From Pseudoruegeria sp. HB172150 (GTDB taxonomy: Bacteria > Pseudomonadota > Alphaproteobacteria > Rhodobacterales > Rhodobacteraceae), in NCBI RefSeq assembly GCF_013184805.1, contig NZ_JAATNG010000002.1, forward strand, positions 496,001-560,000: DNA of 64,000 bases, in the 5' to 3' direction. Positions 45,115 to 51,494 of this stretch are shown here, one piece after another; the first letter of the stretch is position 1, and each line of letters starts with the position of its first letter. Both the position numbers and the translations under genes were made by a program. The notes under the pieces are model-generated. The model was not told where the DNA came from. It did not search any database and worked only from the letters and a program-made list of their open reading frames with translations.

Positions 45115-45210
45115 TGGCGGAAGAGAATGGGAGTCGAACCCACCTAGGACTGGCTGACAGTCCCACCCGGATTTGAAGTCCGGACGCCCCACCGGGGACG
45201 CTTCTCTTCC
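45115..45210 (-). tRNA. selC: tRNA-Sec (UCA anticodon)
   Basis: The 96-nt RNA folds as a selenocysteine tRNA. It has an 8-bp acceptor stem (GGAAGAGA with TCTCTTCC), a D arm with 6-bp stem, an anticodon stem CCGGA/TCCGG and a loop CTTCAAA with anticodon TCA at 45176-45174. A long extra arm (GGACTG-TCAG-CCAGTCC region) and a TTCGA T-loop follow. The 3' GCCA is encoded. It reads UGA and works with SelA and SelB encoded directly upstream on the same strand. The selB frame ends inside it, at 45144. Confidence 0.97.
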
Positions 45211-47168
45211 GCAAGGCGTTGGGACGGATCGATGCCGTCTGCCCCAGTTCCAAAATCGGCGATTCGATGTGGTACCACGCACCGCAGGTCGTCCCGGCGT
45301 ACCGTCAAGCCGATCCGGTCGAAATATTCCAGGATCTCTATCGAAACTTTCCGACCGTTTTCTAAACGGTTCCTGAGCGCCGCAGCTGGGAACCAGCCGT
45401 TCTCGGCGGCTGCCGCAATGTCGCCGACAATTGCCGCGATATCCAGCAGCGCTTCCCGCGCGAAAAATCGGTCTCGCGCAAGTTCGATCACGGCGTTCTG
45501 TTGCGCCATGGATTTGAGCACACGGCGGACATCAATCTCTCTTGCGCCAAGCTCGGCCGCGCATTCCTCGACCTTTGGCGGCCGGAACCGATTGCTGCCT
45601 GAAAGTAGCGGCCGGATGCGCAGCCATAGGTGGTGGTCGATTCTGTCGAGTGCGAGTTTGTGGTCCGGCAGGCAGATCGCCCCGCCTCGGGAGGAGAACG
45701 TTCCGTCGGCCACCATTTGGCGGATGATGGCGGCACCATGCGTTACGCCGTGGTTCTTCTCTAGAGCTTTCGCCAGCGATGCCAGTCCGCAGCCCAGGAT
45801 TTGCGGATTCATCCGGTGAAATACTTCTAGTGCCGAGCGCACAGAAACAATTAGCCGATCCCACACCGGTTCCGCCAGTACCAGGTCGTGGTCAGTCTGC
45901 GTTACATGAACATGGGACACCTGTTTCAGAAGCCGCTCCAGCTGCGGCTGACTCATCGCCCGGTCGCGGGCAAATGCGGCGATGTCCACGGTGAAAGGTT
46001 CGGTTGCAAGCAATCCTTCAAGGCATACGACAGGATCGGCCCGGCTCAGCGCACCCAATTGGGCGAGTCGTTTCGGACTGCGCCTGCGGCGGCGCGGACC
46101 TCGCAGGTCGATCACATGCCCGCCGCCCAAGGTTCGCGCGCCGCCCGCTTCCCGGACGATAAACCGGTCGCCGACGCTGGTAGCGATTTCCTTGTCCAGA
46201 ACAAGCTGAACTCGGCCGGTTTCTCCTGGACGGATGTCATCTGCCTGGAGCAGCGCAAGGCGCGCGACGGTCTCCGAAGCGCCATGATGCAGACGCACAG
46301 GCGTCCAGTGCGCCAGCGGGCGGGACTCGTCGCATAGAGTGTTCAGGATTGCGTCGATGGTGTTCGTGGGGGAATGGGCACCCTCGTCCAAGATGAAATC
46401 GCCGCGCGAGATGGCATCGACCTCAATAGCATCGCCTACGAGATTGAGAGCACAGCGATCGCCCACGCGTCCCGTTTCGGCGGGGCGGTTCTGCGTATGC
46501 ATGCCGCGCACCCGCGCCTTCATACCCGCAGGGCTGACCAGGACATTATCGCCGACACTCACGTGGCCCGAGATCACGGCGCCGGTAACGACAGTTCCTG
46601 TGCCTCTCAGTGTGAAACATCGGTCGACCGCGAGCCGGAACAACCCGTCCGAGGAACGAGGTTCAAAAGATTTTTCCTGAAGCACTAGTTCTGCGTGTAG
46701 CTCAGCAATGCCTTCTGACGTAACGGTAGAGACCTCAAAAACCGGAGCCGATGCAAGCGGCGTGCCTTTCAGAAGCTCTGAAACCTGCGACTTTACCTCC
46801 GAGCGTCGGTCCCGGTCTGTGAGATCGCACTTTGTCAGCGCAACCGCGCCTCTCGTCAGCCCAAGCAGCATGACGATGTCGAGGTGCTCACGCGTTTGCG
46901 GCATTATTCCGTCATCGGCAGCCACAACCAGCAGCACGGAATCGATGCCTGTTGCTCCGGCAAGCATGTTGCGGATGAACCGCTCGTGTCCGGGTACATC
47001 CACGAAGCCTAGCACACTGCCATTTTCGAGGCCGAGATAGGCAAACCCTAGGTCGATGGTGATGCCGCGCGCCTTCTCTTCCTTAAGCCTGTCCGCGTCG
47101 ACGTCGGTAAGTGCCTGAACCAGAGCCGTCTTGCCGTGATCGATATGGCCTGCCGTACCGATTATCAT
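45144..47168 (-). CDS. selB: selenocysteine-specific translation elongation factor
   Basis: 674 residues. The GTPase domain starts [22 protein letters not shown], with switch [21 protein letters not shown]3 [21 protein letters not shown] and G4 TKCDL. Domains II-III follow ([17 protein letters not shown]), then C-terminal winged helices that bind SECIS RNA. ATG 47168 overlaps the selA TGA (ATGA). The conserved part ends near [16 protein letters not shown]; the last ~36 residues are unlike other SelB and the final 21 codons plus TAG are read from within the tRNA-Sec gene. It delivers Sec-tRNA to UGA codons such as that at 51206-51204. Confidence 0.97.
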
Positions 47169-48583
47169 TTCGGCACCTGTGGCGATCTCCACGCTGCCAG
47201 ATTGGCCAGAAAGTCGGCTTCAGACTTGAGGCAGCGCAGGTCCAGCAGTACTGTCTGCCTGGCGATGCGGCCGATCACTGGTTTTGGCAGTTGCCTCAAG
47301 CTTTCAGCCAACAGTTCCGGTGCACGGCCACCTTCGGTAAGTGGCTTGATGGCCAGCGCCGCGCTGGGCAAGGTTTCCACGGGCATTGCGCCGGAGCCGA
47401 TCTGGCTGCGGCAATCGGCAATGGTGACGCGGTACTCGGAACCTAGAGTCTCCCCGACCAAGGGGGCGAGGCGTTGGGCGGCAGCGCGAATTTCGTCCTC
47501 ACTTCGGGCGAGAAAGCGATAGGTCGGCAATGTCTCGGCAAGGCACTCGGTCTTGCGGTAGAGTCTCAGAGTAGCCTCGATTGCGGCTATGCGGATCTTG
47601 TCGGCGCGCAGAGCGCGTTTCATCGGGTTCGCGTTGAGCTGGGCGATAAGGTCCTTTCGGCCGACTATGAACCCGGCCTGCGGTCCGCCAAGTAGCTTGT
47701 CACCGGAAAAGGTAACAACGTCCGCACCTGCGTCAACAGCCTGCCGCACAGTGGCTTCCGGCGCCACGCCGTAAGGAGCCAGGTCGATCAGAGTGCCGGA
47801 TCCCAGGTCATCGACCATTGGCACGCCCATCTCGCGTGCGATCGCTGCAACCTCACTGGTCGGGACTTCTGCGGTAAAGCCTTCGATGCGATAGTTAGAG
47901 GTGTGGACCTTCATCACAACGCCGGTTTCGCTGTCGATTGCGTTCAAATAGTCGCTCTTGTGGGTCCGGTTCGTGGTTCCCACCTCGACAAGCTGCGTAC
48001 CTGCGCTGGCCATGATCTCGGGCATGCGAAAGGCGCCGCCGATCTCGATAAGCTCTCCGCGCGATACGATGGCCTTACGGCCGAAAGCCAGCGTGTTGAG
48101 CGTTAGCAGCACGGCGGACGCGTTGTTGTTAACTACAGTTGCGTCTTCGGCGCCAGTCAGTTCGCAGAGCAGATCGCGCAGGATGTTGTCGCGTTCACCG
48201 CGACCACCGCTGTCGATGTCGAATTCGAGTGCAACGGCGTTTCGCATTGCCTCGATGGCGGCGTCGATTGCGCAATCGGCCAGCTGCGCACGGCCGAGAT
48301 TGGTGTGGAGCACGGTCCCGGTCAGGTTAAAGACAGATGTCAGACGCGGTTTATGCGCAAGTTCCAATGCGGCGCTAGCGGTGGCGGATATGTCCGCGAC
48401 AGTGGCGATCGCAGCCCGTTCCAATCGCGCGGCGTTTAGAGCATCCCGAATGGCGTCCGCTGTTACTGTATGGCCATATCGTTCGCGCAGAGCCTGGCCG
48501 ACGGGCGATTGCAGCACTTTGTCTACCGAAGGCAGGCGCCTCGCATCTGCAGGTATCTTCGTCTTGCTTTCCGCTGATCCCAT
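47165..48583 (-). CDS. selA: L-seryl-tRNA(Sec) selenium transferase
   Basis: 472 residues. PLP enzyme that converts Ser-tRNA-Sec to Sec-tRNA-Sec with selenophosphate. N-terminal RRLPSVDKVLQSP is the tRNA-recognition start. NLTGTVLHTNLGRAQLA, VVNNNASAVLLTLN and the PLP lysine about Lys296 in FSGDKLLGGPQAGFIVGRKDLI are visible. It starts 15 bp after the reductase gene stop and overlaps selB by 4 bp, so reductase, selA and selB are one unit. selD is not in this window. Confidence 0.98.
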   Translation of the reverse strand: MGSAESKTKIPADARRLPSVDKVLQSPVGQALRERYGHTVTADAIRDALNAARLERAAIATVADISATASAALELAHKPRLTSVFNLTGTVLHTNLGRAQLADCAIDAAIEAMRNAVALEFDIDSGGRGERDNILRDLLCELTGAEDATVVNNNASAVLLTLNTLAFGRKAIVSRGELIEIGGAFRMPEIMASAGTQLVEVGTTNRTHKSDYLNAIDSETGVVMKVHTSNYRIEGFTAEVPTSEVAAIAREMGVPMVDDLGSGTLIDLAPYGVAPEATVRQAVDAGADVVTFSGDKLLGGPQAGFIVGRKDLIAQLNANPMKRALRADKIRIAAIEATLRLYRKTECLAETLPTYRFLARSEDEIRAAAQRLAPLVGETLGSEYRVTIADCRSQIGSGAMPVETLPSAALAIKPLTEGGRAPELLAESLRQLPKPVIGRIARQTVLLDLRCLKSEADFLANLAAWRSPQVPK

Positions 48584-48598
48584 CCGACTACCGAGCGC

Positions 48599-49534
48599 CT
48601 AGGTTTCGCGCCATTTTCCGCTGGTGAGGTACATATCCAACGCCGAAGCCGCGGCTGTTGCGTCGCCCATCGCGGCTGCGGCCCGGTGCGGCGAAGCCTG
48701 GCGCACGTTTCCTACGGCGCAGATGCCCCGGGCGCTGCTGCGCATGAACAAATCCACGTTGATGCGGCCGGTCTCGTCAAGCTTTACGCTGTCGCCGGCG
48801 AATTCCGTGTTGGGGACGAGACCGATGAAGGTGAATATCGCATCCGCCGCGATGTCGTCCTCATTGCCCGACACCAAGTTCTTGATCTTCACGCGGGTGA
48901 CGACGTTGTCACCAATGACTTCGACCGGTTCGCTGGAAAAGCGGCACTCGATTTTCGGATGATCGAGGATTGAATTCTTGTAGGCGGCCTGTCCCGACAG
49001 CGCCTCGCCGCGGACCACCATGATCACCTTTTCCAGCTGCTCCGCCAAAACCAGCGCTTCCTGCATCGCGGAGTCACCGCCGCCCGCTACGACGGCCACT
49101 TTGCCGCGCAGCAAGGGAGCGTCACAGCTTGCACAATCGCTGACGCCTTTGCCCTCCAGTCTCTCGACACCGGGCACGTCCAGTTTCGCCAGCGAGGTTC
49201 CTGAGGCGATGACAACACTCCGCGCGGCAATCGCGCTTTCATCTGATGTGACCAGCCAGCAGTCGTCACTGGGAGCTATCCCTTTTGCCGGGTGATCCGT
49301 GAATATCACTCCGAACTGCTCGGCCTGCTCCTGCGTGATCGGGCAAAGGTCGTATCCTGCAATGCCGTCCTCGTGGCCCGGAATGCCGTCAATCTGGTTT
49401 ATCTTTACAAGCTCGCCCCCTGGCACACCGTCTGCAAGAAGGATGGCACTGTATCCCAGCCGTCCGATGGAGAGTGCTGCGCTGAGCCCGGCAATCCCGC
49501 CGCCGATGATTGCAACGTCGTGTTCGGCGCTCAT
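48599..49534 (-). CDS. thioredoxin-reductase-like flavoprotein of the selenoprotein locus
   Basis: 311 residues. FAD site DVAIIGGGIAGLSAALSIGRLGY, NADPH site VAVVAGGGDSAMQEALVLAEQ, and the redox pair Cys-Ala-Ser-Cys in GVSDCASCDAPLLRGK (CATC in classical TrxB). The C-terminal FAD motif is GICAVGNVRQ (usually GDV). It is a low-molecular-weight TrxR fold. Its place between a selenoprotein and selA, coupled by ATGA to a 41-residue ORF, suggests a dedicated reductase for the selenoprotein and not the housekeeping TrxB; this is inference. Confidence 0.88.
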   Translation of the reverse strand: MSAEHDVAIIGGGIAGLSAALSIGRLGYSAILLADGVPGGELVKINQIDGIPGHEDGIAGYDLCPITQEQAEQFGVIFTDHPAKGIAPSDDCWLVTSDESAIAARSVVIASGTSLAKLDVPGVERLEGKGVSDCASCDAPLLRGKVAVVAGGGDSAMQEALVLAEQLEKVIMVVRGEALSGQAAYKNSILDHPKIECRFSSEPVEVIGDNVVTRVKIKNLVSGNEDDIAADAIFTFIGLVPNTEFAGDSVKLDETGRINVDLFMRSSARGICAVGNVRQASPHRAAAAMGDATAAASALDMYLTSGKWRET

Positions 49535-49835: not shown

Positions 49836-51494
49836 TCAGCGCCAGTCGTCCACCAGTACCGTTGGGCCGTCCTTGCTAAGGGTACCGGCTCCGGGGCCGC
49901 GGTAACGGCCGCTAATCATCTTGAAGGCCCCCTGGGTTTCTCCGCCGAGCACGACGATGTTGATGTCCTCTGGCCGAAACATATTAACCATGTCGTCCGG
50001 CGCTGCCTTCCACCGGCTGGCATAGGGCTCGATCCCCGCCACTGCGTGTGGTTTGATCAGGCTGGTTATCCACTGGTCGTCCCAGTAGTTCCGCGCCGGA
50101 ATCTTGGCATTCTCGGCGCACCATTCGATTAGCGACTGCTTGGTGAAGCCCATGTCGTCGAATGCACGGGCGACCAGCGGGTCCATGACTATCAGCGGTG
50201 GGCTGAAATGATCGGTGGCAGTCAGGCAGCGAATGAACTTTTCTTGCCATGTATCCCGCGGTCCGAAACCTGATTGAGTGTACCAGCCGCCGAAGAAAAC
50301 GCTGACGGTGCTGTCAGTGGGCTTATACCCGTTGTCGACGTGGAACGGCGCCCACGGGCTGCGCTCCTCAGCTTCCGGGAAGCAGGCAGTGTAGTTCCAG
50401 TTGCTCCCGACCGAGCCCATGTAGGTGTCGCCGGGTACCGATCCTCCCTGAACGTTCTGTGAGGTTAGACAGAAGGCGCGCCCGATAGTGGAGTTCGCGT
50501 GGTTATAGGGCCCGAGCGCGCCGATCCCGCTGTTCATGCCAAGCTCTTCCCGGATCGGGCCGTTGACGACGGAAATCGTCGCCCAACTCGTGGTGCTGCT
50601 CGAGCGGGCGGAAACGCCACTCGCCGCGAGTGCCAGGATCACGGGCAGGTATTCCGGTCGTGCGCCGGCCATCACCGCATTTATCGCGACCTTCTCGACA
50701 TCGAATGCCCAGGACTCGCGGAAGGCGGCTGGCCGCATGTGGCCGACGATTTTGTCGTGGCTGACAGAGGTTCCACTGAGCATCGCCTCGACTCGCGCCT
50801 CGGTGGGCAAAATGATCGGCAACTGATCAGTCCAGCGGTTCTCATGGAACAGGAACTGGAGGTCATCTTCTGTATCGGGTTCCAGATAGCGCGGCATGTC
50901 TCGCTCGAAGCTGGCATCCTTCATGTCCTCGTCGGTCAACGGCGCGGTCAGACCCTGGATCACACCCTGCATGAACGGGCGCTTCTCTACCGGGTCGGTG
51001 CCCTCGATGTAGGCCCGCAACTCAGAAGGCGAAAGCCCCACGATCGGATGCGGCACGAAGCAATTGCGCAAAGTTGGCAATCCCCCGGCGCGCGCCGTGG
51101 CTTTGGCAAGCCGCGCGAAGGTATGCGTCGAAACTGGGATCGTAGGGATCCCGGCTTCTTCCAGTGCTAATGCGAAGCCCACGACCGTGGGACAGCAGGT
51201 GCTTCAGAGGCCGACGCCCATGATGGCGGCATCGCCATCCCCGACCACCCTGGCTCGCATTTCAGGATCATCGACCCAGCTTTCGCGAGGTTTGATGATA
51301 CGCGTTTCAACGCTCGGCAGATTTTCGGCAAACCAGATTTTGAGCTGCTCCATGAATGCGTCGGCATTGTCGAACAGCGCGTCGATCAGGTACAGTACCT
51401 TTCCGTCGAGAGTCGGTTGACGGTTGGCCAGTCGCTTCCCCACCACTTTCGGGGGGTAGCCCCTTGGGTCCAGCACCTTGAGTTTCTCTGCCAT
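49836..51494 (-). CDS. UGSC-like selenoprotein with in-frame UGA (Sec97)
   Basis: Two open segments in one frame, 51494-51207 and 51203-49836, are divided only by TGA 51206-51204; read as Sec they give 552 residues. ATG 51494 has GAGGAG upstream. Around the UGA the protein reads DAAIMGVGL-U-STCCPTVVG, a U-x-x-C site (U97, C100) with an extra Cys101, after a beta strand and before a helix as in redox proteins. The downstream half continues without a break: GIPTIPVSTHTFARLA, CFVPHPIVGLSPSELRAYI, MAGARPEYLPVILAL, VVNGPIREELGMNSGIGALGPYNHANSTIGRAF. These blocks recall the UGSC family of (seleno)proteins, whose function is unknown. SelA, SelB and tRNA-Sec are encoded just downstream. A stop-codon pseudogene is much less likely. 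The terminal stop is TGA followed at once by TAG. Confidence 0.9.
51171..51206 (-). promoter_or_regulatory. candidate bacterial SECIS element with its UGA
   Basis: After the UGA (51206-51204) the mRNA can form UGC (51197-51195) with GCA (51173-51171), an internal loop UGU/CUUC, and a 5-bp upper stem CCCAC (51191-51187) with GUGGG (51182-51178) closing the loop GGUC (51186-51183). The loop is 17 nt from the UGA. A GGUC-type apical loop at this distance is what SelB recognises in known bacterial SECIS elements such as that of E. coli fdhF. Confidence 0.75.

Follow-up and report, generated by a model that had tools for sequence, protein, structure and literature searches.

A predicted UGSC-type selenoprotein gene beside selA-selB-selC in Pseudoruegeria sp. 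HB172150, and the probable kinship of its selenocysteine domain with GrdB/PrdB

The selenoprotein gene and its neighbours

The window, that is, the whole 64,000-nucleotide stretch of DNA analysed here, carries on its reverse strand what the sequence predicts to be a compact run of genes, in which a UGSC selenoprotein gene and a flavoprotein gene of its own are followed by selA-selB-selC (Table 1). The selenoprotein frame starts with ATG at 51494, ends with the stop codon at 49838-49836, encodes 552 residues and contains a single internal stop. A sequence-only reading had proposed one frame with TGA as the sole interruption, and this was borne out, the TGA being codon 97 of 552. The split expected from automatic annotation was also seen, as mechanical ORF finding gave a 96-residue piece (51204-51494) and a 448-residue piece from GTG 51182. 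SelA, SelB and tRNA-Sec had been placed directly downstream; they do lie downstream, but the thioredoxin-reductase-like gene sits between the UGSC gene and selA.

Table 1. Coordinates in the window of the selenoprotein gene, its parts and its neighbours.
Feature	Position	Strand	Remarks
UGSC-type selenoprotein gene	49836..51494	-	552 codons; Sec predicted at codon 97, encoded by TGA; range includes the stop codon
Sec codon 97, TGA	51204..51206	-	context IMGVGL-U-STCCPTVV; presumed resolving Cys is codon 100 (U-S-T-C)
SECIS-like hairpin (predicted), CCCAC-GGTC-GTGGG	51178..51191	-	positions 16-29 from the T of TGA
UGSC domain, residues 7-162	51009..51476	-	PF24696; probably distantly homologous to the Sec end of GrdB/PrdB
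C-terminal domain, about residues 202-552	49839..50891	-	unmatched by sequence in Pfam and the PDB; probable 'Unknown_1' partner of PMC2398784
Thioredoxin-reductase-like flavoprotein, CASC dithiol	48599..49534	-	TIGR01292, 236 bits (cut-off 343)
selA, selenocysteine synthase	47165..48583	-	TIGR00474, 567 bits
selB, Sec-specific elongation factor	45144..47192	-	TIGR00475, 420 bits; 3' end overlaps the tRNA-Sec gene
selC, tRNA-Sec, anticodon TCA	45115..45210	-	ARAGORN, one found

The selB frame enters the tRNA-Sec gene by about 22 codons; in the nearest relative (L033) the selB stop lies just ahead of tRNA-Sec. The overlap may reflect a lost stop or may be genuine. A selD gene was found elsewhere in the genome (315.9 bits), its frame being fused, as judged by eye, to an NADH-dehydrogenase-like part, and none of the ten matches to formate dehydrogenase homologues in the genome had an internal stop. 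The protein or its partner domain was present in 5 of 398 genomes of the host phylum and in 7 of 149 genomes of the host order. Ten of the 149 genomes of the order had selA above the cut-off, and six genomes had both selA and the protein or partner domain. Four selA genomes (G006, G054, G092, and G113) gave no match to either, indicating that the UGSC protein is not the sole Sec user in the order. The seventh genome with the protein or partner domain, G014 (L013), has no selA above the cut-off. Its site holds Cys, and some 25 codons further on another TGA interrupts the frame; this gene is probably decayed and, because of the broken frame, is no clean control.

The neighbouring flavoprotein resembles thioredoxin reductase over nearly the whole TIGR01292 model (5-303) and keeps the CxxC as CASC, although its score is under the family cut-off. 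A second thioredoxin-reductase-like copy elsewhere in the genome, 31% identical to that of the window, is the likelier housekeeping enzyme. The survey of partners took in L021 and 23 GTDB loci, 24 in all, each of the (U/C)-S-[TS]-C group. A thioredoxin-reductase-like homologue on the same strand was found at 16 of them, with CASC in all 16, and lay within 177 bases of the match at 14; the distance was 1332 bases at L033 and 2232 at L045. The gene was absent from the other 8 of the 24 loci. As four of these (L041, L043, L050, and L056) are full loci, about 15.5 kb long, the association is common rather than universal. Among 111 flanking ORFs selected from 200 candidates, Pyr_redox_2 was the commonest family (12 ORFs; the next had 4) and TIGR01292 matched 11. 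These 111 ORFs gave no hint of a substrate, as the neighbours vary; they include binding proteins, transporters, luciferase-like proteins and CoA enzymes, and apart from the flavoprotein no family matched more than four ORFs. We consider it likely that the electrons come from the neighbouring flavoprotein, with a confidence that the four full-length loci lacking the gene reduce; the Trx/AhpC-like part with a CxxC on the partner protein of split relatives (see below) also speaks for this route.

Selenocysteine at codon 97

A scan of genome contigs with the single protein gave no match, and an alignment profile did find relatives. In the profile scan of GTDB genomes at least 590 stretches matched, 583 of them relatives by tblastn, and the best 80 loci were used, a sample thereby biased to the nearest kin. 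These 80 loci span nine named phyla, namely, Pseudomonadota (31), Acidobacteriota (15), Myxococcota (11), Chloroflexota (7), Bacillota (7), Rokuibacteriota (3), Actinomycetota (2), Thermodesulfobacteriota (2), and Hydrogenedentota (1), with one unplaced record. Alignment A3 comprises 103 rows, which are the window protein and 102 ORF matches from these loci, each covering at least 280 query residues. With the window counted, the column of codon 97 holds TGA in 69 rows, Cys in 13 and another residue in 10 (two Leu, two Ser, two Ala, and one each of Met, Asn, Thr, and Gly); 11 rows do not reach the site. Cys or Sec, expected at this position in homologues, was therefore present in 82 of the 92 readable rows, and the 10 rows without either suggest that some family members work otherwise. 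Among the matches listed there was no group of relatives that ends at residue 96 or starts just past it, a statement that concerns groups and not individual gene starts. Cys occupies the +3 position in 68 of the 69 TGA rows and in 78 of the 82 rows with U or Cys. Thus, the proposed U-x-x-C site stood, but the added Cys (residue 101) did not prove to be a family trait, since only 7 of the 69 TGA rows have it.

The nearest relatives, L033 (79%), L034 (77%), and L035 and L036 (61%), all have TGA at this codon. In a quick tree of 89 rows, from which the motif columns were left out, the window belongs to a clade of 10 rows that all have TGA (SH-aLRT 100), and an all-Cys clade of 7 rows lies within the same 22-row group; across the whole tree the state (U, Cys, or other) changed at least 13 times. 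The genome itself encodes a nearly full-length paralogue, 52% identical, with Cys at the site (GVGH-C-STCA). The paralogue (L002, L142; G000:C1, about 1616000) is flanked by TRAP transporter genes (two DctP and DctM), a short-chain dehydrogenase and a GntR/FCD regulator, and its surroundings are likely an organic-acid catabolic locus.

Codon positions were compared on both sides of the TGA. Between the window and L033, divergence before the TGA was 0.59 at third positions versus 0.11 and 0.10 at first and second positions, and after it 0.54-0.64 versus 0.12-0.21. The corresponding values for L035 were 0.53 versus 0.26 and 0.21 before the TGA and 0.48-0.50 versus 0.19-0.32 after it; the third-position bias thus exists on both sides, with a weaker contrast in remoter relatives. 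Alternatively, translation might really end at the TGA, with no Sec made, and the two pieces might be distinct proteins or what is left of a decayed gene. The stop codon itself, and nothing more, speaks for this; 69 of the 92 readable rows share the TGA at this position, which together with the biased divergence on both sides leaves it a negligible chance. On the same two observations a pseudogene or a sequencing error was rejected, and an error in the window, which had been named as something that would undo the proposal, is very unlikely because 69 rows have the TGA. We conclude that the gene almost certainly encodes a selenoprotein in which UGA is read as Sec.

A hairpin lies just past the TGA, and near relatives have a common stem in which +16 to +20 pair with +25 to +29. 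Within the U-S-[TSG]-C group, at least four of the five pairs are formed at 26 of 28 TGA sites versus 1 of 11 Cys sites, and the GGTC loop is found at 20 of 28 and 2 of 11, respectively. In fixed alignments, 27 TGA genes have standard pairs in 87.4% of their pair cells, and 11 Cys genes in 38.2%. The former value was reached by 3 of 500 shuffles, and shifting the partner by 1-3 columns lowered pairing in the TGA genes to 18-70%. Covariation is thin, with a two-sided change at one pair (18 with 27) in three sequences (the window, L033, and L034 per alignment), probably a single event. The 51-nt segment of the window is of ordinary stability (z about +0.2 to +0.3). Hairpin z-scores of 88 TGA and 25 Cys sites differed with p 1.8e-5, a value that is indicative only, because related and partly duplicated loci were counted and rows with other residues were excluded. 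These results point to a SECIS-like hairpin that is commoner in TGA than in Cys genes; its loop may resemble that of the E. coli fdhF element (GGUC).

Kinship of the UGSC domain and nature of the C-terminal domain

The N-terminal part of the protein matches the UGSC family PF24696 with E 1.2e-25 and 91.1 bits (gathering cut-off 25), and U97 with C100 corresponds to the U position and the Cys at +3 of that family. In contrast, the score against the NCBIfam equivalog UGSC_fam NF041046 was 71.5 bits, under the curated cut-off of 125, which indicates that the window protein is a distinct UGSC branch. It shares the domain, the UxxC site and the exchange of Sec and Cys with the family, but its motif is U-S-T-C instead of U-G-S-C and it is fused to a C-terminal domain of 350 residues. 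The identification as a UGSC-family selenoprotein, made at the outset from the letters alone, agrees with the PF24696 match, the U/Cys exchange at 97, the Cys paralogue, the TGA-linked hairpin and the Sec machinery. Likewise, the remark that this family has no known reaction accords with a 2026 review (PMC13188914), which in its passage on UGSC counts it among families with largely uncharacterized functions.

The UGSC profile was compared with GrdB by hhalign, profile against profile, using clostridial PF07355 loci as the GrdB set. The profiles of UGSC (86 rows) and GrdB (10 rows) aligned over 95 columns with U on U (probability score 95.9, E 5.4e-9 for a single comparison), and the E value was 1.9e-6 when the motif was masked. 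Controls gave 0.052 with GrdB reversed and no better than 0.053 in 30 shuffles of its columns. Two short PrdB-like proteins (L115, L124) matched the UGSC profile with E 1.7e-7, and the match to GrdE was weak (E 0.0016, probability score 15.8, 56 columns). As an independent check, the 103 members of A3 were scanned against 18950 NCBIfam models. UGSC matched 93 members, and the next five families, TIGR01917 (19), NF040794 (14), TIGR04483 (10), TIGR01918 (7), and NF040795 (7), were all of the GrdB type, each remaining family matching at most three members. Single-member matches to GrdB models are weak (best E 1.1e-4) and most members have none, so that the support lies in their agreement. BLASTP of the window protein against one GrdB aligned U97 to U350 (E 0.007), and the U-x-x-C-x-x-C form of GrdB occurs in 11 relatives' entries with U or Cys, some of them closely related.

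The likeness extends over about 95 columns around Sec, with a strand, UxxC at a helix start, E..GIP and then PHP; thioredoxin-linked reduction may be a further common trait. The GrdB/PrdB families (the five NCBIfam models above and PF07355) are the B subunits of glycine, sarcosine, betaine and D-proline reductases. Unlike GrdB, the window protein has no match to PF07355, the part before Sec, up to E 5, and UGSC members span nine named phyla rather than fermenting clostridia alone. PF07355 had no match in the genome, and 14 controls were equally silent. In nine of nine full-length matches (L113, L116-L123; open frames of 350-372 residues) the PF07355 match ended at 347 of 347, and in L113 the next residue is Sec. 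Since this Pfam model stops just short of the Sec codon in these loci, it is blind to kin of the catalytic segment, and the kinship may have stayed hidden for that reason. Taken together, these profile comparisons make it very probable that the Sec segment of GrdB/PrdB and the UGSC domain are remotely homologous.

Beyond the UGSC domain the protein gave no Pfam match up to E 5. A search of PDB sequences gave none up to E 5 with alignment A2 and four chance-level matches up to E 1 with A3. Polar positions conserved in the C-terminal domain include D223, T231, N272, N334, R339, E374, E376, and W381, which look like an active site. This domain was also considered as a relative of GrdE/PrdA, a candidate rejected on the hhalign result against GrdE (E 0.25). 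A structure model from the 103-row alignment was confident (pLDDT 94.8, pTM 0.93), and one from the single sequence had pLDDT 31.8. The predicted order around Sec is beta-alpha-beta-alpha-beta-U-alpha-beta-alpha-beta. Foldseek of the confident model against the PDB returned 1425 matches up to E 10, none at E 0.001 or better (best 1.2e-3); consequently, the fold neither supports nor opposes the GrdB kinship. The 50 matches listed are weak and mostly alpha/beta, among them a NagZ-type hexosaminidase, a phosphosugar isomerase, NrdI and a flavodiiron protein. A solved structural relative of the GrdB sequence was also sought, and none was found.

A fusion of UGSC with 'Unknown_1' was reported in 2008 from the GOS survey (PMC2398784), so the architecture seen here is probably not new. 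The GOS fusions probably have the same two domains; in the relevant part of that survey the reductase partner is not named, and PrdB is treated as a family separate from UGSC. No link between UGSC and GrdB/PrdB was found in the passages on UGSC selenoproteins in the open literature. Within the open literature searched, as far as its accessible text goes, the outlines of the selenoprotein, and probably of its architecture, have been described, and the kinship, partner and mechanism are not in print.

The two domains are also found apart. In five genomes of a single related genus, g3, the partner domain is on a protein with a Trx/AhpC-like part, adjoining a separate UGSC gene with TGA and a tRNA-Sec gene. 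L007, the sole g3 protein scanned, matched PF00578 with E 6e-5, below the cut-off, and the CxxC in the frames read is CETC or CGTC. In all five genomes the same strand carries selA some 3 kb upstream, and a SelB tail was seen, by eye only, just upstream. At L003-L007 and L015 the order is tRNA-Sec, the partner-domain gene with its Trx/AhpC-like part (Pfam scan of L007 only) and the UGSC gene with in-frame TGA. Plasmid records gave matches in 24 of 72,556, 11 of which cover at least 80% of the protein. On haloarchaeal plasmids L026, L029, and L031 the two domains are adjacent genes with Cys at the site. The Acidovorax sp. T1 plasmid p2-T1 (L023), typed as conjugative IncP, carries a UGSC fusion gene with in-frame TGA, and its gene table, which is incomplete, gives the short first piece alone as a hypothetical protein. 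The motif region of the homologues on Vibrio and Sporomusa plasmids (L027, L028) reads D-M-G-T-S and has no Cys, and aconitase X and DUF126 genes are nearby; this Sec-free branch may do other chemistry.

A candidate reaction and its alternatives

The mechanism that we propose was inferred from GrdB/PrdB chemistry, which is established knowledge and is summarized in PMC13188914. Remote homology does not transfer reaction or substrate. The Sec, the kinship and the linkage to the partner have support from the sequence; reduction, the path of the electrons and the role given to the C-terminal domain are proposals. The window protein would be a reductase. A small substrate, probably one with a carboxylate group, would lie against the C-terminal domain; the Sec97 selenolate would attack a carbon-heteroatom bond of this substrate (or a similarly electrophilic one), and Cys100 would resolve the selenium adduct to give a selenenylsulfide. 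The thioredoxin-reductase-like flavoprotein, with NADPH, FAD and CASC, would re-reduce the selenenylsulfide directly or via thioredoxin. The C-terminal domain would then take the place of GrdE/PrdA of the classical reductases without similarity to GrdE. Overall, the reading that seems to us, on balance, the probable one is a selenoenzyme driven by NADPH, which would attack a small organic substrate and be regenerated via U97-C100; that the attack is a nucleophilic reductive cleavage is suggested by analogy and is put forward tentatively.

The same U97-C100 pair could instead act on disulfides or peroxides, in a thiol or peroxide oxidoreductase of Trx-like fold that attacks no organic substrate. 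The UxxC motif, the thioredoxin-reductase-like neighbour and the Trx/AhpC-like part that split relatives carry on the partner protein are consistent with this, and a Trx-like fold was supposed for UGSC proteins in the GOS survey (PMC2398784). However, the profile kinship is with GrdB/PrdB, the 14 Pfam families that the 103 members match include no Trx family, the predicted beta/alpha order around Sec argues otherwise, no thioredoxin title appears in the 50 weak Foldseek matches listed, and the conserved 350-residue domain would be left without a role. We regard this alternative as unlikely. Slightly less likely still is a GrdB-like redox switch or sensor governing the C-terminal domain, which would itself do the catalysis, as a hydrolase or lyase, for instance. 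Ten rows without U or Cys are still family members with the C-terminal domain, and haloarchaeal plasmids and a Roseovarius plasmid encode the two domains in separate, adjacent genes, as a switch would allow; nevertheless, the UxxC pair is kept in 68 of 69 TGA rows, the linked flavoprotein suggests turnover, and Sec is costly for a mere switch.

If the reductase reading is extended to the whole family, UGSC would add another major branch to the glycine/proline-reductase selenoenzymes, one that is widespread beyond the fermenting clostridia. Its pyruvoyl subunit would be replaced by a domain of new fold, its NADPH-flavoprotein-thioredoxin-Sec chain would be mobile as a cassette with selA-selB-selC, and it would cleave C-N, C-O or C-halogen bonds of imported organic acids; in this full form the picture is speculative and rather doubtful. 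The placement beside GrdB/PrdB, the likely reductase partner and the conserved second domain nonetheless turn 'function unknown' into a defined assay, in which NADPH oxidation by the flavoprotein is followed with the UGSC protein and candidate organic acids. This would be a first testable chemistry for a widespread selenoprotein family without a known reaction. Three UGSC-fusion homologues per locus were observed at L093, L057, L063, L099, L100, and L075, as if substrates had diversified.
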